Shown here in pieces: positions 1,563-26,397 of a DNA stretch of 33,305 nt; the stretch's first letter is position 1, and every line of letters starts with the position of its first letter. The notes beneath the pieces are model-generated. The model had not been told where the DNA came from and did not search any database. It worked only from the letters and a program-made list of their open reading frames with translations. A program made the translations under genes and the position numbers. The DNA comes from Pirellulales bacterium (GTDB lineage Bacteria > Planctomycetota > Planctomycetia > Pirellulales > Thermoguttaceae), in NCBI GenBank assembly GCA_016931995.1, contig JAFGDS010000121.1, forward strand, positions 1 through 33,305, in the 5' to 3' direction.

Positions 1563-1880
1563 GCTCAACGCGACCCGGCAACCCCCCGATCTTCGCGGCG
1601 ACAAAATGGGACTGCCCCCATCGTCAGGCACGGCCCGACCCACGAAGTCGCTCCTTCCTTTTCGCGATTTTGTACTTTCGTGTTTTCGTGCGACCGTCTG
1701 CTGCAAGCGATCGAGCGGCCCTATTCCCATCGAATCAAGCAACGATTGACGGCGGCCAGGGCCGATCTGCTCCGCCAACGGACCGTCCGTAAGCGACCGG
1801 GCGTGGAAACGAGGACAGTCTCCTTCTGGGCGACCTGGGCCGAGGTGAGAGACGCGGGGTTTGGCAATGGCAAGAAGAGA
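1563..1880. other. Intergenic region with a period-8 repeat remnant
   Basis: This is 318 bases between two convergent genes. At about 1660-1691 it carries a copy of the TTCGTG-rich repeat (TACTTTCGTGTTTTCG) that recurs at 22015-22054, 23764-23800 and 23853-23898. A short GGGACTGCCCC sequence near 1606 resembles the GGGGACTGTCCCC palindrome found inside the O-antigen ligase gene. I see no gene or clear terminator. Confidence 0.5.
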
Positions 1881-3768: not shown

Positions 3769-4644
3769 GTGTATCCAACGCTGTTCGCCCTATTGTTTGT
3801 CGTTGCCGTGGCGGTGGTCATCTTCCTCGCGGGCATACGGATAGTTCGTCCCACGCACCGCGGGTTGGTGGAGAGACTCGGCAAGTACCGGCGTTTCGCC
3901 GACCGCGGCTTCAACTGGATCATTCCCCTCGTTGATCGAATGGTGCGGGTGAATATCACGGAGCAGATGGTCGACGCCCAGCCGCAAGAGATCATCACGA
4001 ACGACAATCTCAACGCCAGAGTGGACGCCCAGGTCTACTTCAAGGTGAAAGAGGACGAGTCGAGCGTGAAGAGTTCGCAGTACAAAGTCAACAATTACAG
4101 GCTTCAGATCGTGAACCTGGCTCGTACGACGTTGCGCAATATCATCGGCACGCTCACGCTGAAATCGGCCAACAGCGAAAGAGACAAGATCAACGGCGCC
4201 CTTCTTAACACGTTGAGCAGGGAAACCATGAGTTGGGGAATGGCAATCGTCAGGACGGAGTTGAAGGAGATCGACCCTCCGAAGGACGTCCAGGAGACGA
4301 TGAACAAAGTTGTCAAAGCGGAAAACGAGAAAGTGGCCGCCCTGGACTTCGCCGACGCGGTCGAGAGACAGGCGGATGGGGTGAAGAGGGCGGAGATCAA
4401 GAAGGCCGAGGGGGTAAAGCAGGCCAAGATCCTGGCAGCCCAGGGCGAGGCCGAGGCCATCAGGCTTGTCAACGAGGCGGCGAATACGTACTTCGTTGGA
4501 AACGCGCAACTCCTTCGAAAGCTCGAGGCCCTCGAGAAATCGCTCAGCGGAAACGCCAAAATCGTCATCCCGTCGGGTTCGGAACTCGTCAACGTCATCG
4601 GAGAGATGGCCGGCGTTCTGCCGTTGGCGGAGGGAACGCGATGA
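3769..4644 (+). CDS. SPFH/band-7 membrane protein (stomatin/paraslipin type)
   Basis: The protein has about 291 residues. One N-terminal membrane helix (YPTLFALLFVVAVAVVIFLA) is followed by the band-7 core RPTHRGLVERLGKYRRFADR, GFNWIIPLVDRMVRVNITEQ and NLNARVDAQVYFKV. A long charged helix then runs through AENEKVAALDFADAVERQAD, the KRAEIKKAEGVKQAKILAAQ stretch and GEAEAIRLVNEAA. This is the stomatin/QmcA/paraslipin plan: proteins that oligomerise on membranes and organise microdomains or proteases. I favour the GTG at 3769 because GGAAAGGAA precedes it at proper spacing; an ATG at 3730 would add 13 residues but lacks a ribosome site. The usual partner NfeD is not nearby. Confidence 0.9.
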   Translation: MYPTLFALLFVVAVAVVIFLAGIRIVRPTHRGLVERLGKYRRFADRGFNWIIPLVDRMVRVNITEQMVDAQPQEIITNDNLNARVDAQVYFKVKEDESSVKSSQYKVNNYRLQIVNLARTTLRNIIGTLTLKSANSERDKINGALLNTLSRETMSWGMAIVRTELKEIDPPKDVQETMNKVVKAENEKVAALDFADAVERQADGVKRAEIKKAEGVKQAKILAAQGEAEAIRLVNEAANTYFVGNAQLLRKLEALEKSLSGNAKIVIPSGSELVNVIGEMAGVLPLAEGTR

Positions 4645-7945: not shown

Positions 7946-8630
7946 GACAAATGGCTGCCGGCCTGCCGCGCGTAGTCGTGTACGGGCACTTGACGCGAGG
8001 AGGACGCCATTCTCCGGTCCCACGGGGCTTTTGCCGATCGCCTCTCCAGGGCTTAAACGCGGACGACCCGGTCATGCCGATTGCGTCGAAGCGTCTCGAC
8101 GGGCACAATGGCGAGGAGATCCCTGGCCGTGCTTGAGCTGGCGCGGGGATGAACACAGATGAGAAGGAAGATGAAGAAAAGGAACCGCGGATGAACGCGA
8201 ATGAACGCGGATGAGAGGGGTGGGGACGAGGGGCGTCAGCGTGAAGCGGCAGCGGGCTCATTTTCCTTCAGTTGTCTCCGTTCCCATCCCAACTTCATCT
8301 GAGTTCGTTTGCGGTTTCCCGTCCGTTCCCGCCGCCACCTCCATCCGTGTTTATCCGTGTTCATCCGTGGTTCCTTACCTCTCTTTCTCCTCCGTGCCCT
8401 CCGCGGTGAGTCTTTCGTCACGGTATCGGGCACCCCACTAATGTAGTAAATGAAGCCGTCATACTGGGTATAGCCGGAGGTTTCCGGAGTAGTAAGATTA
8501 TTTGTTTCGTCGCTTGCCGCGCGGAGTTCCTTCGGGGACGGCGTCGTCGCGGGCGGGCGCGATGGGTGGGCCGCGGGGCGGCCTGCTTGGTTTGTTGTGT
8601 TCATGGGGAACAGCCAGGGAGACCAACCTT
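7946..8630. other. Long intergenic region with period-10 inverted repeats
   Basis: This is 685 bases without a convincing gene. At 8181-8215 it has a GCGGATGAAC/GCGAATGAAC/GCGGATGAGA array with a 10-base period. At 8342-8374 the inverse (CATCCGTGTTTATCCGTG, ending in GGTTCC) occurs, followed by CTCCGTGCCCTCCGCGGTGA near 8391. The two arms would fold back on each other. The same arrangement recurs at 14396-14573 and 26034-26397. Reading frames here have no family features. Confidence 0.6.
8181..8374. repeat. Period-10 palindromic repeat, copy A
   Basis: The left arm 8181-8215 starts with GGAACCGCGGATGAACGCG. The right arm 8342-8374 is its approximate reverse complement, ending in ATCCGTGGTTCC. 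The two arms are separated by 126 bases. Confidence 0.7.
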
Positions 8631-14322: not shown

Positions 14323-14395
14323 TTTTGCTGCCGGTCCCTTTTGCGTCATCCTGAGCGAAGCGAAGGATCCCGTTGGCATTGCGCCGGTTAGGGGA

Positions 14396-14573
14396 GGAAC
14401 CGCGGATGAACGCGGATGGACGCAGATGAGGTTGGGGGCGAGGGATTGGGGATTGGCCGGCGGGCGGTTGCGTTGCCTGTCCCGAATCCCGATCCAGGTT
14501 GACCCGCGGCGTCTTTTCCCCTCGTCCCCCGCCCCCAACCTATTCGCGCCGATTCGCGTCCATTCGCGGTTCC
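14396..14573. repeat. Period-10 palindromic repeat, copy B
   Basis: The left arm 14396-14430 begins GGAACCGCGGATGAACGCGG and continues with the same 10-base period. The right arm 14541-14573 is the approximate inverse, ending in CCATTCGCGGTTCC. Confidence 0.7.
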
Positions 14574-14839
14574 CTCCCCGTCGTCCCGAACCATTCGTTT
14601 GCGTTGAGAACCTCTTCCCACGGCGCTTGGCGGAGAGTATAATCGAGGCGTGGTTGGGAGCGGCGCGGGCCCGTTGTCGTGACGGGCGCGGCTGGCGCGG
14701 TCTTGCGGTACAATCCGACGTGCCGCTTGGGACGAACTTCTCTTGAGTTGCTCCTCGGACGCTGTTGGTGTGGGTTGGTCTATCCTTGGGGCGCCCCGGC
14801 GGGCTTGCCCAGCGGTTAAAAGCATTTCCGATGAGATAC

Positions 14840-14866
14840 ACTGCTGGACAAGCCAGCAGTGGCACA
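14840..14866. repeat. CACTGCTGG...CCAGCAGTG palindrome
   Basis: CACTGCTGG-ACAAG-CCAGCAGTG followed by GCAC. The same unit occurs inside the O-antigen ligase gene (18550-18575 and three times in 19433-19530). Confidence 0.75.
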
Positions 14867-16239: not shown

Positions 16240-16523
16240 AGAACGTGTTTTGAAATTCGTCTTTTCTCTAGCCCAGGCGTTTACGCCTGGGGATCGAAGG
16301 GCCAGAATCGGATTGGCTTTTTCCTTGCCGTCCCCTTCAGGGGGCGGAAGATCGGCGAGGCCCAAGCGCGAAAGGACGCCCCTGGAAGGGGCTTTGGAAA
16401 AAAACACGTTGGGGGAATCCGTGGTCCCAGGCGTGAACGCCTGGGCTAGAGAAAACGTCTGGACGCCTCAAAGGACGATGTCGCCTGCAAACCCTTCGTG
16501 ATACGCATCTCAAAACACGTTCT
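16240..16523. mobile_element. MITE-like nested palindromic element, 284 bp
   Basis: The outer 14-bp inverted repeats AGAACGTGTTTTGA (16240-16253) and TCAAAACACGTTCT (16510-16523) bound an inner pair of 30-base arms (16262-16291 and 16426-16455) that differ at one position. Each inner arm holds CCCAGGCG-N4-CGCCTGGG plus CTAGAGAAAA. No transposase is encoded and no target duplication is obvious. The right end touches the stop codon of the cinA-like gene (16523-16525). The rest of the padR-cinA gap shows no gene. Confidence 0.6.
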
Positions 16524-17848
16524 CACCGCGCGCCCAGCTCGAGCCGGGCGAAGTCCAAGGCGTGCTTGGCGCAGAACACGGCGAGCGTGGCCAGGTGGCC
16601 GGCGAAGGGAACGCTCTTGGGACGCACGCCCTCGGACGTGGCCAGGGCGAAATGGACCGACGGCGGCTCCGCGGACGCGGGGTCGCGCTCGGGAAATTGG
16701 CTCACCGCCAGGCCGTAGTCCGCGCCAAATCGCCGCCGGCACGCCTGGGCCATCGCCTCGGCCACCGCCGCGCTGGCGGCGCCGTGTTCGGCTACCACGG
16801 CCCAGGGCACGTCCAGCGCCCGCACCAGCGCCTGCTCGTCGCGGACGATGATCCCGCCGGAAAAGGGGTTAAAGGGCGCATTAACGTCGAGTGCCACTGG
16901 CTCCGCCAGTGCTTCCTTCGACGGCGATATCTTCGGCCTACAAGTGGCACGCGCGGCGGCCAAGGCGAGCCATTGGGCCACCAGGCCGGCGGTGCCCCAC
17001 TCGGCCACGGCGAGCGTCCGGTTCCGTCGCGTGAGAAGCCGCACCACGACGTCCTCAAGCTCCTCGTCGTCCTGGCCAAACACGAGATCGCCCAAACACT
17101 CGTGAATGGTCGCCACCGTGGGCGCGATCGCCGCCTCGCACTCGGCCGCGGTCGCCCCCTCGGCGGTGATCCGCAGGATGATCGTCGTGCGGCTGGCCGT
17201 GATGCCCACGCGTGGAACGCGGTCGCGGCGGACGAGGTCCGGCAACATCGCCTCGACGTTGCTCTCGCCGGCGCCGAAGCATTTGATGTTGCGGTGCACG
17301 ACGACCCGTCGCCCCGCGCCCCTATCGACGAGCGCCGCGCGAACCGAGCCGGCCCACATCTCCTTCATCTCGGCCGGAACGCCGGGCAGGGCGAAGACGT
17401 GGCAGGGCCCTCGCCCGGGCCGGGCGATTTCCATGGCGATGCCCGGCGCCGTGCCGTTGGGATTGGCCACCATCCGGCTTCCTTCGGGGAACATCGCCTG
17501 CACTTCGTTTCGCGGGGGCATGTCGCGGCGCCGCCGGGCGTAGATCTCGCGTATGTGGGCCAGCGCCGCGTCGTTGCGCACCAGCCGACGGCCGGTGGCT
17601 TCGGCCAGGACCCCGCGCGTTAGATCGTCCGCAGTCGGGCCCAGCCCACCCGTGGCGATCACGAGGTCCGCCCGGTCGATCGCCTGGCGAAACACGGCCA
17701 CTCCGGCGGCCAGCTCGTCGCCGACCGTGGTATGGTAGAGCACCCGCACGCCCAGCTCGCCCAGCCGCTGGCTAAGCCACTGCGAGTTCGTGTCCAGGAG
17801 CTGCCCACTGGTGATTTCGTCGCCAATGGCGAGGGTTTCCGCGTTCAT
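16523..17848 (-). CDS. cinA: CinA-like protein (MoCF domain plus altered CinA C-terminal domain)
   Basis: This 441-residue protein has residues 1-170 as the MoCF/CinA N-domain: AIGDEITSGQLLDTNSQWLS, TGGLGPTADDLTRG (66-79), NPNGTAPGIAME, ALPGVPAEMKEM. The C-terminal CinA domain (deamidase of nicotinamide mononucleotide in active members) starts near 270, but the usual AESCTGG active-site motif reads AEWGTAGL, so deamidase activity is doubtful. About 20 residues (300-320) are encoded by a 60-base palindromic repeat inserted in frame at 16891-16950. The start at 17848 is set by homology; the ribosome site is weak. The gene lies 63 bases downstream of the O-antigen ligase gene. Confidence 0.85.
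   Translation of the reverse strand: MNAETLAIGDEITSGQLLDTNSQWLSQRLGELGVRVLYHTTVGDELAAGVAVFRQAIDRADLVIATGGLGPTADDLTRGVLAEATGRRLVRNDAALAHIREIYARRRRDMPPRNEVQAMFPEGSRMVANPNGTAPGIAMEIARPGRGPCHVFALPGVPAEMKEMWAGSVRAALVDRGAGRRVVVHRNIKCFGAGESNVEAMLPDLVRRDRVPRVGITASRTTIILRITAEGATAAECEAAIAPTVATIHECLGDLVFGQDDEELEDVVVRLLTRRNRTLAVAEWGTAGLVAQWLALAAARATCRPKISPSKEALAEPVALDVNAPFNPFSGGIIVRDEQALVRALDVPWAVVAEHGAASAAVAEAMAQACRRRFGADYGLAVSQFPERDPASAEPPSVHFALATSEGVRPKSVPFAGHLATLAVFCAKHALDFARLELGAR
16891..16950. repeat. 60-base palindromic repeat inserted in the cinA reading frame
   Basis: The element begins GTGCCACTGGCTCCGCCAGT and ends AAGTGGCAC, so its termini GTGCCACT/AGTGGCAC are inverted. Its length is a multiple of three and it keeps the frame open, adding about 20 residues to the protein. 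Confidence 0.75.
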
Positions 17849-17911: not shown

Positions 17912-20341
17912 TCAGAGCGTGTCACCAAGGAGTCTTACCCGCAGCGCGGGCGGGAGCTTCTTGTCGCGATGGGGCGTCACCGCGTCGAGGTCGAGCGCGG
18001 CGGCCTTCTCGCGTTCGAAGCCGTCGCGGTCGCCCTTGGCCCGCAGGGCGATGGCCAGCTTGGCGCGGTAGGTGGCGTTGGTCGGGTAGAGGTCGTTGGC
18101 TTGCCGATAAGCGTGGATCGCGTCGTCGAGCGTCTCGGCCGAGGCGTTGTGCTCGAAGATCTCGAAATACCGATCGCCGGTCACGGCCCATGTGGGGCTC
18201 GCCCGCCGCGCCAGGCGAAGCGACGGGTCCGTGCAGGCTTCGAACTGTTTGAGATCCTCGCTCCGTCGCGACTGCTGCCATCGGGCGAAGGCCGACGACG
18301 CGAGTTGATTCCAGGGCTCGGCCCAAAGTGGATCGGCTTCGGCGGCCGCGCGGAAGTGCGCCTCGGCCTCGGGCGGATAGGCCAGCGCCGCCGCGACGTG
18401 CCCCTGCGCGGCCAGCACCGGCGCGTAGCCCGTCCAGTAGCACAGCACGACCAGCAGGACAAACACGAGTGCCCCACCGACGGCCGAAAGGCTATGCAAA
18501 CGCGTGGTTGTATGGCCGCTGTCGTTGATCGATCCAACCATGTCTCGGGCACTGCTGGACAAGCCAGCAGCGGCGCCCGGAGCCTTGTCGGGCACGGCCT
18601 GACCCGCCAGACCCAAAGCCAAGAGGATCCAGAAGGAGCCGGCGACGCCAGGAAAGGCGATCCCGCCGGCCGCCAGCAGATTCACCAAGAGGACCACCAG
18701 GCCAATGGCCGCCACGCCGGACGAGAACCGGCCCTGCTCGATCCAGCCACGGAGTAGCCAAACCGTGGCGGCCGCCGTCGGCATGCTCAGCCACGCCAAG
18801 GCCGGGTCGGGCCACGTGCCGTCCAACACGCCCAAAGGCCAGGCCGCCAATATCCCCAGCGCCGCCGCGCCCAACACCCACGCGGCCGCGTCACCGCCGG
18901 TGGAGGACGCGTTGCGTTCGTCCGATGCCGCCGACGTTTGTCGCCGCGCAAGCGTCCACGCGAACCCGCCGAGCACGGCCAGAAAGGCCAGCATCGCCGG
19001 CGTGCCCGCCGTGGCCCCGATCTCCAGCAGGAAATTGTGCGGGTCGGCCACCTCCTCGCTGGCCTGGGGCAGCTTGTAGGCGGTGTAGAAATCCTGGAAC
19101 TGACCCGGGCCGCAACCGAGCACGGGATGGTCGCGGATCATCGCCAGCGTCGAGCGCCAGTACTCGACGCGATAGCCGAGCGACTTCGTGGCCTCGCCCA
19201 ATACCGCGGCGTCCAGCCCGCCGACCGCCACGGCGACACCGACCAACACGGCCAACGCGGCCAACGCCGCCGCGGGCAGCTTCCAGCCGAGACGGCGACC
19301 CGACCGCGCGTGCGGAGCGATGAGGACCGCGCCGACGGCCATCGCCGCGTACGCGCTTCGGCTTTTGGTGAGCACCAGACACGCGGCCATCACGGTCGCC
19401 GCCAGGGCCGGGCCGAATGCCCATGCCGGGCGCCACTGCTGGCTTGGCCAGCAGTGCTTGGCATGGCAGGTGGTACTGCTGGCTTGTCCAGCAGTGCTCT
19501 CTACATTGCTGGGCAAGCCAGCAGTGCCACCCGAGGCAACCACGGCCAACAACACGGCCAGCCACGGGGCAAGGAATCCGGCCAACGAGTTGGTCAGAGC
19601 GAACGTGGCCGACGGCTCGACGCTGGCCAAGCGGTTGGCGAACTGCTCGCGCAAGGGCGAGTCGGGCGGATACCAAAGGCCGTTTGCCCGCAACATCGCA
19701 TCCGGATCTCGGGCATACTGGGCGCGGAGTATCGGATTCTCGTAGCCGTATTGCCACAACCCCAACGCCGCCAACGCCACGCCCAGGGCAATCATCGCCG
19801 CAACGATCGCCCGGACCTCGCGGGCGGCGCGGACCAGTTGGCGCAGCAGGAAGTAGCCCGCGCCCAATCCGATCCACTGCCAAAGCACGTTCCATGCCGG
19901 CCGCGCGTACTCGTGCCACACGGCCCACCCGGCCGAGACGCCCAAAAACGCAAGGAACACAAGCACCGCCGCGTCGGTCGCGCCAAAGCGAATCGCCGGG
20001 GATTGCCCCGATCTTCGTGCCGGGGATTGCCCCGATCTTCGCGCAGCGAAAAGGGGACTGTCCCCTTTTGCCTCCCCTCCCAACCGACTCCTTGCCCGAA
20101 CGGCCTCCGCCGCCACTGCCGCCAGCCAGATCGCGGCCAGAACCAGCGCGGCCATTGCCAGCGGCACGCCCTCGCCGGTCTGGGCGACCGCCTCGCTGGG
20201 CAGAAGCGGCCGGGCGACAAAGACCACGACCGTGCCCGCCAACAGCCCGGGGCGGATCCGCGCGGTCAACGGCACGACCGGCCGGCCATCGCCCTCGGCC
20301 GGTGGCGGAGCGGTCTTCGGCTTTCGCGTGGATCGGGACAT
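17912..20341 (-). CDS. O-antigen ligase/polymerase (Wzy_C) with C-terminal TPR-like region
   Basis: This 809-residue protein has ten or more membrane helices in residues 30-630 and the Wzy_C/O-antigen ligase signature near 395-440 (LGYRVEYWRSTLAMIRDHPV, LGCGPGQFQDFY, EVADPHNFLLEIGATAG). A soluble helical tail from about 660 has TPR-like repeats (YPPEAEAHFRAAAEADPLWA, LDDAIHAYRQANDLYPTNAT). Members join or polymerise glycans on the periplasmic side of the inner membrane. Three blocks of repeat DNA lie in frame within loops (residues about 91-116, 271-303 and 589-598), including the duplicated octapeptide RRSGQSPA. The ATG at 20341 is preferred over a GTG at 20350. The gene is divergent from the priming transferase at 20610, fitting a shared polysaccharide pathway. 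Confidence 0.88.
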   Translation of the reverse strand: MSRSTRKPKTAPPPAEGDGRPVVPLTARIRPGLLAGTVVVFVARPLLPSEAVAQTGEGVPLAMAALVLAAIWLAAVAAEAVRARSRLGGEAKGDSPLFAARRSGQSPARRSGQSPAIRFGATDAAVLVFLAFLGVSAGWAVWHEYARPAWNVLWQWIGLGAGYFLLRQLVRAAREVRAIVAAMIALGVALAALGLWQYGYENPILRAQYARDPDAMLRANGLWYPPDSPLREQFANRLASVEPSATFALTNSLAGFLAPWLAVLLAVVASGGTAGLPSNVESTAGQASSTTCHAKHCWPSQQWRPAWAFGPALAATVMAACLVLTKSRSAYAAMAVGAVLIAPHARSGRRLGWKLPAAALAALAVLVGVAVAVGGLDAAVLGEATKSLGYRVEYWRSTLAMIRDHPVLGCGPGQFQDFYTAYKLPQASEEVADPHNFLLEIGATAGTPAMLAFLAVLGGFAWTLARRQTSAASDERNASSTGGDAAAWVLGAAALGILAAWPLGVLDGTWPDPALAWLSMPTAAATVWLLRGWIEQGRFSSGVAAIGLVVLLVNLLAAGGIAFPGVAGSFWILLALGLAGQAVPDKAPGAAAGLSSSARDMVGSINDSGHTTTRLHSLSAVGGALVFVLLVVLCYWTGYAPVLAAQGHVAAALAYPPEAEAHFRAAAEADPLWAEPWNQLASSAFARWQQSRRSEDLKQFEACTDPSLRLARRASPTWAVTGDRYFEIFEHNASAETLDDAIHAYRQANDLYPTNATYRAKLAIALRAKGDRDGFEREKAAALDLDAVTPHRDKKLPPALRVRLLGDTL
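18550..18575. repeat. CACTGCTGG palindrome inside the O-antigen ligase gene
   Basis: CACTGCTGG-ACAAG-CCAGCAG, in frame, in the loop before the C-terminal soluble region. Same family as 14840-14866. Confidence 0.7.
19433..19530. repeat. Triple CTGCTGGC palindrome cluster inside the O-antigen ligase gene
   Basis: Three units within about 98 bases, all in frame: CACTGCTGGCTTGGCCAGCA (from 19434), ACTGCTGGCTTGTCCAGCAG (from 19475) and ATTGCTGGGCAAGCCAGCAG (from 19505). They encode about 33 Ser/Thr/Ala/Cys/Trp-rich residues between two membrane helices. Confidence 0.85.
19996..20069. repeat. Tandem GGGGATTGCCCC units plus AAAAGGGGAC palindrome inside the O-antigen ligase gene
   Basis: Two 22-base copies starting CCGGGGATTGCCCCGATC (19996-20017 and 20020-20041) with period 24 encode the direct repeat RRSGQSPA-RRSGQSPA. 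They are followed by the 21-base palindrome AAAAGGGGAC-T-GTCCCCTTTT (20049-20069). Confidence 0.9.
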
Positions 20342-20609
20342 GGTTGCCACTCTCGGACTATTGCCTACTTACCACACAGGCTTTCATCGGTCCACCGACT
20401 CGTTCGTCCCCAAGTCGTGGGTGGGAATGGGGGCACTCCACGAGACGCCCTCGCGCACGCCGGCGAAGGATATTTCCCATTCCTGCCATTCCGCGCCTCT
20501 TGCCCCATCTCCCTTGACCTCCTGCCGGAGCTGGTGGTACAAGTCCGACGGTTCGAGAACGGCGTTCGCGTCTTGATGGGTCGACGAAGCGATAGGGCAG
20601 GGGTGGTGT

Positions 20610-21998
20610 ATGTACCGGCGGCACGGCGATAAGCTCCGCTGGGTGTTTCTGAGCGGCGATCTGGCAATGACGGCCGGAGCGTGGATCGGAGCGTATTGGC
20701 TTCGTTTCACGCTTTGGCCGTCGCCCGCCGGCGTGCCCGACATGGGCACGGTCCTCGCCGCGGTTCCCTCGGTCCTGGTCCTTGCGGCCGTGGCGTACCA
20801 CCTGGCAGGACTGTACGAAGTGCACCGGCTGCGGCAGTTGCCCCGCGAGTTGGGCGTGGTGTGCAAGGCCGCCGGAGTGCTGTTCGTTCTGGTTATCACC
20901 GTCACGTTCTATCGCCGCGACCTGTACGAGTCGCGTCTGGCCCTGGGGCTCTTCCTCTTCCTGAACGCGGCCGGGCTCACGCTGGCGCGGCGGGCGCTGT
21001 GGCAAGCGCTTCGACGACTGCGCGGACTGGGGCTCAACTACGGTCGGGCCGTGATCGTCGGGGCGGGCCGGCCGGGCCGACTGGTGGCCGAGACGATCCG
21101 CGCCAACGCCTGGACCGGGCTGGAGACGGTCGGCTTCGTCGACGACGCCGCGACAAAAGCCCGCGGCGCCGTCCCCCTGCTGGGCACGATCGACCAGATC
21201 CACGCCGTCGTCGCCCGGCACGACATCGACCACGTCTTCGTCGCGCTGCCGTTCTCCCGCTACGGCGAACTTGCTCGGGTGTACGGGGCCCTCAGCGGCG
21301 TATTGGCCGAGGTGCAGCTTGTGCCGGACTTGCCCATCCTGACCGGGATGAAATTGCACATGCTCGACATCGACAACGTCGGATTCTTGAGCCTGCGGCG
21401 CAATCCGCATTGCGGCTGGGCCCGCGTGGCCAAGCGGGCGACGGACCTCGTGCTGGGCACGGCCGCGCTCGTGCTGGCCGCGCCAATCCTGGCCCTGCTG
21501 GCCGTGGCCGTGCGGCTTTCCGGCCCCGGGCCGATTCTCTATCGCCAAACCCGCACGGGCTTGGGGGGACGACCCTTCGCCATGCTCAAGTTTCGCACGA
21601 TGCGCCACGACGCGGAGCGCGACACCGGGCCGGTCTGGGCGGTCCGCGGCGACCGGCGGTGCACGCCGCTGGGCCAGTTCATGCGCCGCTGGAGCCTGGA
21701 CGAGCTGCCGCAGTTGTTCAACGTCCTGGCCGGCGACATGAGCCTGGTCGGCCCTCGGCCGGAGCGCGACGTCTTCGTCCAGCAGTTCCGCCAGCAACTG
21801 CCCGGCTACGACCAGCGCCATCGCGTGAAGACCGGCATGACCGGCTGGGCCCAGGTCAACGGCTGGCGGGGCAACACCTCGCTGCGTCACCGCCTGGCGT
21901 GCGACCTCTACTACATCGCGAACTGGTCGCTGGGCCTGGATCTCAAGATCCTTCTTCTGACCCTCTGGTGCGGCCTGCGCCATCGCAACGCGTATTGA
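20610..21998 (+). CDS. Exopolysaccharide polyprenyl glycosylphosphotransferase (WcaJ/WbaP-like)
   Basis: This 462-residue protein has an N-terminal block of four or five membrane helices, a Rossmann-like CoA-binding-type domain (YGRAVIVGAGRPGRLVAETI) and another helix. The bacterial sugar-transferase domain then shows GPGPILYRQTRTGLGGRPFA, MLKFRTMRHDAE, SLDELPQLFNVLAGDMSLVG, PRPERDVF and VKTGMTGWAQVNGWRGNT. It transfers a hexose-1-phosphate from a nucleotide sugar to undecaprenyl phosphate, the first step in capsule, exopolysaccharide or O-antigen synthesis. The plan and length match the family. The divergent O-antigen ligase gene 268 bases away would act at the end of the same pathway. The ATG at 20610 follows GGGGTGGTGT. 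Confidence 0.93.
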   Translation: MYRRHGDKLRWVFLSGDLAMTAGAWIGAYWLRFTLWPSPAGVPDMGTVLAAVPSVLVLAAVAYHLAGLYEVHRLRQLPRELGVVCKAAGVLFVLVITVTFYRRDLYESRLALGLFLFLNAAGLTLARRALWQALRRLRGLGLNYGRAVIVGAGRPGRLVAETIRANAWTGLETVGFVDDAATKARGAVPLLGTIDQIHAVVARHDIDHVFVALPFSRYGELARVYGALSGVLAEVQLVPDLPILTGMKLHMLDIDNVGFLSLRRNPHCGWARVAKRATDLVLGTAALVLAAPILALLAVAVRLSGPGPILYRQTRTGLGGRPFAMLKFRTMRHDAERDTGPVWAVRGDRRCTPLGQFMRRWSLDELPQLFNVLAGDMSLVGPRPERDVFVQQFRQQLPGYDQRHRVKTGMTGWAQVNGWRGNTSLRHRLACDLYYIANWSLGLDLKILLLTLWCGLRHRNAY

Positions 21999-22014
21999 TT
22001 GGTGCCCCGCGCCA

Positions 22015-22054
22015 GGGGAATCACGAAAACGCGAAAGGACGAAAATACGAAGAG
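22015..22054. repeat. Period-8 repeat, copy D1
   Basis: ATCACGAAAACGCGAAAGGA followed by CGAAAATACGAAGAG is made of eight-base units (ACGAAAAC, GCGAAAGG, ACGAAAAT, ACGAAGAG). Related copies are D2 (23764-23800, inverted), D3 (23853-23898) and one near 1660. Confidence 0.75.
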
Positions 22055-22736: not shown

Positions 22737-23756
22737 CTATGAACTCTTCCTTCCCGACTTCTGTTGCGTGAGGAAGTCCTCGAACTTCTCGATAGTGTTG
22801 AAGATATTGGAGGGCTGCAGACCGAGAATACTTGCGATGATGAACTCTGTCATCCGCACAAACATGGCGGCATCGCGTGTTGCGGAATCGGACTTGGGCA
22901 GTCGGCCGAAGTGGATTATGCGATTGCGGATGGCAGCAAGGCCCTGTAGGCGTTTCTTTTCTGTCTCCTGTAGACTCTCGCGCACGGCGAAGTTGACAAG
23001 CAGGAATGCGATCTTCTCTGAGGCGTTCAATGCCTTGATGGACTCCGCGGTCAACCAACTCCTCGTGAGGACAGAGAACAAGTGCTCCCATATCGTCCAA
23101 CAGTGAATGAAGGTGTCCTGCGGTAGCCGCTGTTGAAAGGCGTTAAATGCGAGGAACAGGAAATGCCCCTTGTCAAACCGCGAGAGCCACTCGTCGCTGC
23201 CGATTCTCTGGTAAATCGCGTCGAGCCCTTTTCCAAGTGACACGTCCACCGGCCAATAGCTGTCAATTTGAGGCGGCACCTCCTCGTAGGGGATCGAAGT
23301 TGCGAGGAGACCTCCCCAAGGGAAGACTCGTGACTCGGCGACAATTGCCTTGGATGACAAATCTTCGTCCACGTCCACCGCAAAGACATGGCGGGTCGTG
23401 AAGAGTGAAAGCAGCAGGAGAATGTCGTCCAGGGCAGAGAATGAGTCTGACCCCCATCCAAGAACCGCAGGCTGCTGTCGGTCGAAAACGACGTCCGCCG
23501 TGTGTGCGTGGCCACCGGTGCCAATGGAAACCGGGACCTCACTGTGGCAGTTCACGAGGTGTTGAAGCTGTTGGAGTCGTTCCGGGTATTCGGGAACGCG
23601 TTCGAAATGGTAGCCGCCGATGTCCATTTCTCGGCAGCCACTTCGGAACTCAAGATTGTAGACCCGCTTTTTCACACGACGTCCCTTGCCGTAGGCCCGG
23701 TTGTCTTCACGTTCAACGAAAGCGCCGCCCGACTCCTCACCGACGGGTTGGATCAC
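22737..23756 (-). CDS. HEPN-like protein of unknown function
   Basis: This protein of up to 339 residues is not a family I can name. The C-terminal third is all-helical (ASEKIAFLLVNFAVRESLQE, KKRLQGLAAIRNRIIHFGRL, FVRMTEFIIASILGL) and contains RNRIIH, an R-x4-H motif (Arg277, His282) with the Asn after Arg. This is the catalytic signature of HEPN RNases found in toxin-antitoxin and defence systems. The N-terminal two thirds are mixed alpha/beta without clear motifs. The codon usage is visibly less GC-rich than the neighbours, and the gene is bracketed by period-8 repeats, suggesting acquisition. The start is uncertain: GTG at 23756, or GTG near 23675 before KKRVYNLEF. No antitoxin-like partner is next to it. 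Confidence 0.65.
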   Translation of the reverse strand: MIQPVGEESGGAFVEREDNRAYGKGRRVKKRVYNLEFRSGCREMDIGGYHFERVPEYPERLQQLQHLVNCHSEVPVSIGTGGHAHTADVVFDRQQPAVLGWGSDSFSALDDILLLLSLFTTRHVFAVDVDEDLSSKAIVAESRVFPWGGLLATSIPYEEVPPQIDSYWPVDVSLGKGLDAIYQRIGSDEWLSRFDKGHFLFLAFNAFQQRLPQDTFIHCWTIWEHLFSVLTRSWLTAESIKALNASEKIAFLLVNFAVRESLQETEKKRLQGLAAIRNRIIHFGRLPKSDSATRDAAMFVRMTEFIIASILGLQPSNIFNTIEKFEDFLTQQKSGRKSS

Positions 23757-23763
23757 TCATGCG

Positions 23764-23898
23764 CCTTCGTGCTTTCGTCCTTTCGTGTTTTCGTGATCTC
23801 GTCCAATCGGCTGGATAGCAGATTCCGGGCCGAATTGCGTGGTGAGTCGCGCCAAGGGAATCACGAAAGCGCGAAAGGACGAAAGCACGAAAGAAAGA
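23764..23898. repeat. Period-8 repeats D2 and D3, inverted pair
   Basis: TTCGTGCTTTCGTCCTTTCG (from 23765) and, 90 bases on, AATCACGAAAGCGCGAAAGG (from 23859) are inverted copies that would form a long stem. They lie between the HEPN-like start and the metG stop. Confidence 0.75.
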
Positions 23899-26033: not shown

Positions 26034-26397
26034 TTCACCACGGAGGAACGAGAAGGAACCGCAGATGAACGCGGATAGACGCAGATGGATGGAGGTAAAA
26101 GGACGATAGGGAGGGAACCGCCAATGCACGCGAATGTACGCGAATTGACATAATGGGCAACGAGGCGGGGATTTGCAGGAAGAACACTCTCGGCGTCTCG
26201 TTGCCGCTGGAAGATGGGGAAAGACCAAATGCAACCTCCAGCGTCCCAAGCCTCTAACCCCATTCGCGTTCATTCGCGTGCATTGGCGGTCCCTTTCTTC
26301 CTCCCATTCTCCCGTCTCGTTTCAACCCTGGATATCTGCGTTCATCTGCGGTTCCTTCTCCTTTCCACGTGTACCTCCGCGTCCTCCGTGGTGAATC
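26034..26397. repeat. Nested palindromic repeat, copy C (period-10 units)
   Basis: Three inverted pairs lie one inside another: TTCACCACGGAGGA (26034) with TCCTCCGTGGTGAA (26382); GGAACCGCAGATGAACGCGG (26055) with CTGCGTTCATCTGCGGTTCC (26335); and GGAACCGCCAATGCACGCGA (26114) with CATTCGCGTGCATTGGCGGT (26271). The whole 364-base element fills the gap between the sat stop and the metG start. No other gene is seen in this 403-base gap. Confidence 0.85.

Follow-up and report, generated by a model that had tools for sequence, protein, structure and literature searches.

The window analysed here is the 33,305-nucleotide contig JAFGDS010000121.1 of a Pirellulales bacterium (assembly GCA_016931995.1), which contains an O-antigen ligase-like gene that very probably carries in-frame insertions of two dispersed palindrome families: element A, a repetitive extragenic palindrome (REP) that usually lies between genes, and element C, a composite palindrome whose sampled full-length copies lie in genes half of the time. 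An earlier reading made from the letters of the window alone (the sequence-only reading) had described three palindromic families in this gene; our analysis reduced these to two families, A and C, occupying three insertion sites. There is direct support for the repeat status of the inserts, for their absence from the compared orthologues and their placement in loops, and for the conserved frame at C, its many hosts and its recurrence in other genera. The main weight of the evidence comes from C across the genome, and less from the ligase by itself. Together these results suggest that selfish DNA has been absorbed into working proteins.

The GGGGATTGCCCC units and the AAAAGGGGAC palindrome, previously taken as separate families, were assigned to one 48-nt composite, C, because the sampled copies fit a single composite with a common left arm. 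This composite palindrome (consensus GGGGACTGTCCCGATTTTCGCGCCAGCGAAAAGGGGACTGTCCCCTTY) is built from the left arm GGGGACTGTCCCGATTTTCGCG and the right arm GCGAAAANGGGACTGTCCCC, and 44 of the 59 sampled units fit a full length of 47 or 48 nt and were taken as full-length C, in preference to a count of 87 that takes in near-palindromic copies on both strands. GGGGATTGCCCCGATCTTCG in the window is a degenerate C left arm, doubled through one additional 24-nt unit. Repeat counts were made against the backward pattern as background control in the 5.43-Mb genome (5,430,075 bases in 153 contigs, the window being contig 19), where the AAAAGGGGAC palindrome of C had 80 copies at ≤2 mismatches (1 backward) and near-full-length C had 51 copies at ≤3 mismatches (0 backward). 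Paired changes were seen by eye in the C stem, for example TTTTTGCGGCAGCAAAAA in locus L117, and both arms contain, on one strand, GGGGACAG, which fits the motif GGGGWSAS. The consensus sequences of both C and A are stop-free in all six frames, a property that is weak alone as it is shared by 29% of random genomic 48-mers. Contigs C1, C9, C29, C58, C135 and C148 start less than about 200 bases from a palindromic repeat, as if repeats broke the assembly.

Element A comprises the CTGCTGGC copies, is separate from C and has the consensus GGGYG-CCACTGCTGGCTTGTCCAGCAGTG. Its palindromic core gave 122 genome matches at ≤1 mismatch (1 backward) and the oriented core gave 193 (94 + 99) at ≤2 mismatches (5 backward), and alignment of 118 copies revealed an abrupt left border with GGGYG lying 8 nt before the core. 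The 142 copies of a first sample (≤3 mismatches) formed 88 units, 47 of which were inverted '+-' pairs, and 39 of those 47 were spaced 44–50 or 65–68; in such pairs the tags often point outward. A has the features by which REPs are recognized (a palindrome of 20–40 nt, many copies, a conserved 5' tag, inverted pairs at preferred spacings and a mostly extragenic location), with the tag GGGYG in place of the guide tetranucleotide GT(A/G)G. The sequence-only reading also proposed that these repeats spread actively; this is inferred from the 0 to 616 A copies found between related genomes and from the abundance of copies identical to the consensus (among 95 A units, 56 include one that matches all of the 29-nt consensus), and is not observed transposition. 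Oriented A matches numbered 616 in G021, 254 in G020, 200 in G015 and 166 in G018, all relatives, and 166 in the window genome.

The ligase gene is uninterrupted, in agreement with the continuous 809-codon frame previously described, and the repeats lie at the positions claimed for them (Table 1). Its frame ranked best of six in 14 of 16 segments of 150 nt, at every one of the three insert sites the sequence on either side scored as coding in the same frame, and the product has a Wzy_C domain (PF04932; E 2e-23; residues 317–457) and the residues that are invariant across the 28-sequence alignment. An AlphaFold2 model made from 28 sequences reached a mean predicted local distance difference test (pLDDT) score of 85.3 and a predicted template modelling (pTM) score of 0.88. 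In this model the three inserts have block pLDDT values of 45–67 and are coil save for a short helix at residues 99–105: the C insert (block pLDDT 58–63) is placed between predicted helices 62–94 and 124–146, the A cluster forms coil 275–306 between helices 253–274 and 307–328, and the single A forms coil 583–614 between helices 567–582 and 620–657. All three thus fall in low-confidence stretches of the model, as would be expected from the earlier proposal that they occupy loops between helices. The last two copies of the A cluster form an inverted pair resembling a REPIN (REP doublet forming a hairpin), and the cluster gives an RNA hairpin of -73 kcal/mol (z -8).

Comparison with 29 orthologous loci, drawn from 86 other genomes with a match, showed that the window inserts are missing from the orthologous ligases compared, the nearest of which is 53% identical to the window protein. 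Loop 1 was covered by 27 of these 29 loci, of which 21 were short, three had another palindrome and three (L015, L027 and L030) had a short unrelated extra sequence. Orthologues carrying the same residues with unrelated codons would have identified the C insert as ancestral protein, and the C peptide was absent from all 27 covering loci, so that the insertion proposal was not refuted by this comparison.

Other palindromes were found within the ligase loops of other lineages. Three species of one genus (L016, L026 and L029) had the loop-1 palindrome CCCCTCTCCC..GGGAGAGGGG, degenerate in L026, which perhaps represents one event. This family, in the pattern CCCTCTCCC..GGGAGAGGG, is that of loop 1 of G020 and G021 (the G019 copy is degenerate) and of an inverted pair in loop 3 of G010, and its exact-pattern copies numbered 103 in G019, 57 in G020, 109 in G021 and 11 in G010. 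Loop 2 of G091 contained the inverted pair ATGCCCACGC..GCGTGGGCAT (CATGCCCACGC..GCGTGGGCATG; 6 copies in that genome), and loop 3 contained GCCCCCGCAC..GTGCGGGGGC in G003 (17 copies) and GTCACTGGC..GCCAGTG (CACTGGCG..CGCCAGTG) in G090 (6 places). Backward controls of the orthologue palindromes gave 0 in those genomes. Counting the window's own, in-frame palindromes of dispersed families were present in 8 of 30 ligases and in four loops, where repeat status was established, among the long loops of the alignment, for the named palindromes only.

Gene context was determined in a sample of 101 stretches totalling 1,033,322 bases (~1.03 Mb) of the 5,430,075, window included, which covers the surroundings of 100 A places and of the C places among the matches listed (contig 145 excepted) together with about 50 kb of contig 83 picked without a listed copy; stretches L053 and L106 have about 500 bases in common. 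Genes were called with our own codon-model caller trained on the sampled stretches (77% coding), which is unlike standard annotation. C lay in genes in 24 of 59 sampled units, affecting 23 genes, and among full-length copies 22 of 44 were in genes and 22 were non-genic. A was found in called genes in 8 of 95 units. Two of these, in L052 and L121, were rejected as chance matches that differ from the 29-nt consensus at 8 and 7 positions, and six plausible intragenic units remained, including those in L080 (3 mismatches) and L127 (4 mismatches); five of the six share their gene with C (the ligase twice, MnmE, UvrD and a secretin). The difference in gene residence between C and A was significant (Fisher P = 3e-6, with the two chance A matches left in), as was that between C and families D, E, F, H and J (P = 3e-16). 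Family G was intragenic in 2 of 14 units (L049 and L126), at least one by chance: the match in acetyl-CoA synthetase (L049) was rejected as an insertion since the PDB alignment passes it ungapped.

Where both flanks of C were clearly coding on one strand, the frame was the same in 15 cases and different in one (P = 8e-7 against an expectation of 1/3). The tolerance in proteins proposed by the sequence-only reading was borne out for C in the sample; the frame count of A is weak, and frequent gene residence belongs to C alone. The 22 full-length in-gene copies of C were distributed over the six frames as 13, 5, 3, 1, 0 and 0, a usage with a chance probability of 6.5e-5, or 9e-5 when weighted by the per-frame openness of non-genic copies, and the commonest frame reads KGDSPLFAGAKIGTVP in the consensus.

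A Pfam domain was detected in 17 of the 23 C host proteins, which included MnmE, UvrD (a partial copy), NuoA, an aminotransferase, WaaA, SNF2- and Hsp70-type proteins, an outer-membrane efflux protein, a secretin and ABC/FtsX permeases. Within the sample, the earlier suggestion that palindromes are accommodated in proteins as in Rickettsia applies to 23 genes that carry C. Alignments to PDB chains break at C in MnmE (query 48–93 against chain 57–71, where the N-terminal piece has just 8 bits), in NuoA (query 84–130 against chain 87–91) and in the aminotransferase (query 208–248 against chain 256–257). WaaA (L114) was set aside as a bracketed insertion, as its PDB alignment begins only past the element.

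Of 119 family genomes, 7 contained near-full C, with 51 copies in the window genome and 1–5 in each of the six others, and a draw of 392 genomes from across the phylum gave no further genome with it. Copies inside genes occur in other genera as well. The six other genomes contain 14 copies, which were scored with the codon model of the window genome: four (L153, L158, L143 and L146) had both flanks coding on the same strand and in the same frame at the strict threshold used for the window genome, three more (L142, L150 and L145) passed at a laxer threshold and L151 was weak. No same-strand frame change at C was seen among the other-genome copies with both flanks scoring as coding. The eight peptides read KGDSP(I/V)F..KIGTVP (4), (G/R)DCP(D/N)FR..NGT(V/I)P (3) and KGTVPF..KSGQSP (1), and seven of the eight hosts have a Pfam domain, including UvrA, a pseudouridine synthase and a D12-class methylase.

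Several observations weigh against the interpretation of these repeats as in-frame insertions accommodated by proteins. C is under-represented in genes relative to the 77% coding content, and most co-resident families are nearly confined to non-genic DNA, with 0 of 81 intragenic units for E, F, H and J together and 1 of 107 for D in the sample. Same-strand flanks are frame-discordant at C unit L132 and at A units L080 (4372) and L087, and the A frame count of 9 same to 2 different is weak, particularly as two of the nine are the chance matches in L052 and L121 and three lie outside called genes. An empty-site strain, from which insertion borders and target duplications could be read, was not at hand, the orthologues being 27–53% identical to the window protein, and the window genome is in 153 contigs, where misassembly at repeat sites is checkable only with reads. 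Finally, the exact A core and full-length C were absent from the examined flanks of the seven Y1 transposase loci, two of which are at contig ends with incomplete flanks.

Among the alternatives, it is very improbable that the inserts are ancestral protein, i.e. low-complexity linkers that are palindromic by coincidence. The ligase loops, chiefly loop 2, do vary in length among orthologues and extra sequence is normal there, but the inserted DNA matches dispersed intergenic repeats, its residues are absent from the orthologues compared and the same C repeat is read in four different frames across proteins. Decay of the ligase, with the open frame being fortuitous, is barely credible either: several inserts in one gene may hint at it, but it is opposed by 809 open codons, coding same-frame flanks at the three sites, an intact Wzy_C domain, the presence of the invariant residues and a confident model. 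Retention of the intragenic copies for a function, as an expression-tuning mRNA hairpin or a useful peptide module, could be invoked because (K/E)GDSPxFAxAKIGTVP, or at least its beginning, is encoded by 13 of the 22 full-length copies within genes, two of six frames are unused, the frames in other genomes are distributed as 4, 3 and 1 of 8 and the A cluster makes a very stable RNA hairpin. This is unlikely, however, as full-length copies match the DNA consensus to a similar degree inside genes (mean score 38.4) and outside them (36.6), the hosts are functionally unrelated and full-length C is equally common outside genes.

The frame bias of C may alternatively reflect target choice by the integrating enzyme and not selection at the peptide level. 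This is a variant of the insertion interpretation that we regard as doubtful but deserving of serious attention. The first base of C, in the reading direction, is at codon position 1 in 18 of 22 in-gene copies, and the flanks show a preference (C before the element; G before RC after it). This flank preference is weak and appears both inside and outside genes, and a fixed target would set codon phase only if the target itself were codon-biased. The strongest form of the insertion interpretation, held here tentatively and at a little short of even chances, would be that C is a dedicated gene-dwelling mobile palindrome of 16 codons, restricted to one Pirellulales-type family, open in six frames and suited to proteins in length and codon phase, that adds KGDSPxFAxAKIGTVP to unrelated housekeeping enzymes while co-resident REPs stay mostly outside genes.

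Insertion of A and C probably proceeds through Y1 single-strand (HUH) transposases copying the elements, with a REP-associated tyrosine transposase (RAYT) acting on D and A and an enzyme resembling the terminal inverted repeat-associated tyrosine transposases (TIRYT) acting on C. Survivors would be insertions that leave the reading frame intact in loops able to accommodate them, and each full-length C within a gene forms a loop some 16 (or 24) residues long. The variable loops of the ligase may be such landing sites, which would account for unrelated palindrome families there in different lineages. Seven Y1_Tnp matches were detected in the genome. In L175 (contig 134) the match at 4009–4233 is flanked by family D REPs (GAGTGCCACTGGCTNNGCCAGTGC) at 3913, 4569 and 4599, making this locus a candidate REPtron; on this basis D is likely to be moved by a RAYT and, given the tag and layout that it shares with A, the same may hold for A. 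Inverted repeats resembling terminal inverted repeats flank other Y1 genes, namely GGGACAG in L171, GGGGACAC in L173, whose Y1 gene has an in-frame TGA, and GGGGACGC in L174. The C motif CGAAAANGGGACNG (40 in the sample, 0 backward) resembles the L171 repeat, with the resemblance confined to a CGAAAACGGGACAG-type motif and not covering the whole element; exact CGAAAACGGGACAG was absent from the sampled 1.03 Mb. On this comparison C is probably a non-autonomous relative of TIRYT-type elements. A transposase adjoining A or C was sought at the seven Y1 loci and found at none of them within the flanks examined.

Table 1. Repeat elements and host genes located in the window.
Feature	Position	Strand	Remarks
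O-antigen ligase-like gene (Wzy_C)	17912..20350	-	812 codons from GTG, 809 from ATG three codons on; uninterrupted
C composite, 72-nt form (extra 24-nt left unit + 47/48-nt element)	19998..20069	-	encodes about residues 94-118 (KGDSPLFAARRSGQSPARRSGQSPA)
A cluster, three copies	19428-19456; 19468-19496; 19504-19532	+; +; -	encodes about residues 273-308
Single A (REP, GGGCG tag)	18550..18578	-	1 mismatch to 29-nt consensus; about residues 591-601
A inverted pair	14797..14859	.	between genes
Degenerate C-like copy	1584..1619	.	between genes
Family D palindrome in cinA-like gene (16523-17848), in frame	16886..16912	-	adjoins ligase gene

The A pair and the degenerate C-like copy listed in Table 1 confirm that the families of the ligase also occur between genes in the window. 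In the alignment of the adjoining cinA-like protein to a PDB chain, query positions 295 and 327 correspond to positions 291 and 298 of the chain, leaving about 25 extra residues at the D palindrome. Further repeats of the window are of the GATGAACGCGGATGAACGCGGAT type (8180–8236, 14395–14451 and 26054–26159) and of the CGTGTTTTCGTG / GGAATCACGAAAACGCG type (1648–1690, 21991–22051 and 23745–23891), and nearly all of these lie between called genes.

Outside Rickettsia, these results provide a clear example of DNA that is apparently selfish and has turned into protein within housekeeping enzymes. One genome holds a built-in contrast between C, which resides in genes, and A, D, E and F, which mostly do not, and this makes it testable which properties (length, open frames, peptide or target phase) permit survival in genes. 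The loops of the O-antigen ligase are in addition marked as natural insertion-tolerant sites. If C is indeed a dedicated gene-dweller, the Rickettsia phenomenon would have arisen independently for a second time.

Among known systems, REPINs and the REPs of RAYTs have a conserved 5' tag, GT(A/G)G, and inverted pairs. Element A is similar in its conserved 5' tag and its inverted pairs at preferred spacings, and a Y1 gene is bordered by REPs of family D, which is similar to A, whereas the tag of A is not GT(A/G)G and its transposase was not found at the seven Y1 loci. TIRYT genes have terminal inverted repeats with GGGGWSAS (PMC3733652) and correspond to subclass 2.1 TnpA in PMC6006769. C shares the GGGGWSAS motif through GGGGACAG and the genome has Y1 genes with inverted repeats, GGGACAG or GGGGACAC, but full C was not seen at the flanks of any Y1 gene.

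REPs have also been described within genes, and one of the species concerned, O. terrae, is a verrucomicrobium. It was reported as the richest in intragenic GTAG repeats, and intragenic GTAG and CGTC REPs ('REP-decorated proteins') occur as singles and dimers in UvrD, uvrA, recB and others, where over half of the inserts encode 20–30 residues and the recB genes of two Xanthomonas species have different REPs at about the same site (PMC3733652). The elements described here differ from these in the GGGYG tag of A and in the composite structure of C, of which 24 of 59 units are intragenic, against a mostly non-genic placement of its co-resident families. The Rickettsia palindromic elements (RPEs) are about 150 bp in length, nearly half of the R. 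conorii copies being in genes (PMC10969869), and RPE-4 and RPE-6 are REP-sized CGTC repeats (PMC3733652). C resembles the RPEs in being a palindromic repeat that lies in frame in unrelated protein genes, and it differs as a 48-nt composite, in contrast to about 150 bp, in a 5.4-Mb planctomycete genome (7 of 119 family genomes). Neither element C nor its sequences or peptides were found in the literature as far as searched. The phenomenon itself is known from RPEs and intragenic REPs, and what appears new, within the same search, is C, its contrast with the co-resident repeats, the bias in its reading frame and the recurrent use of the ligase loops for insertion.

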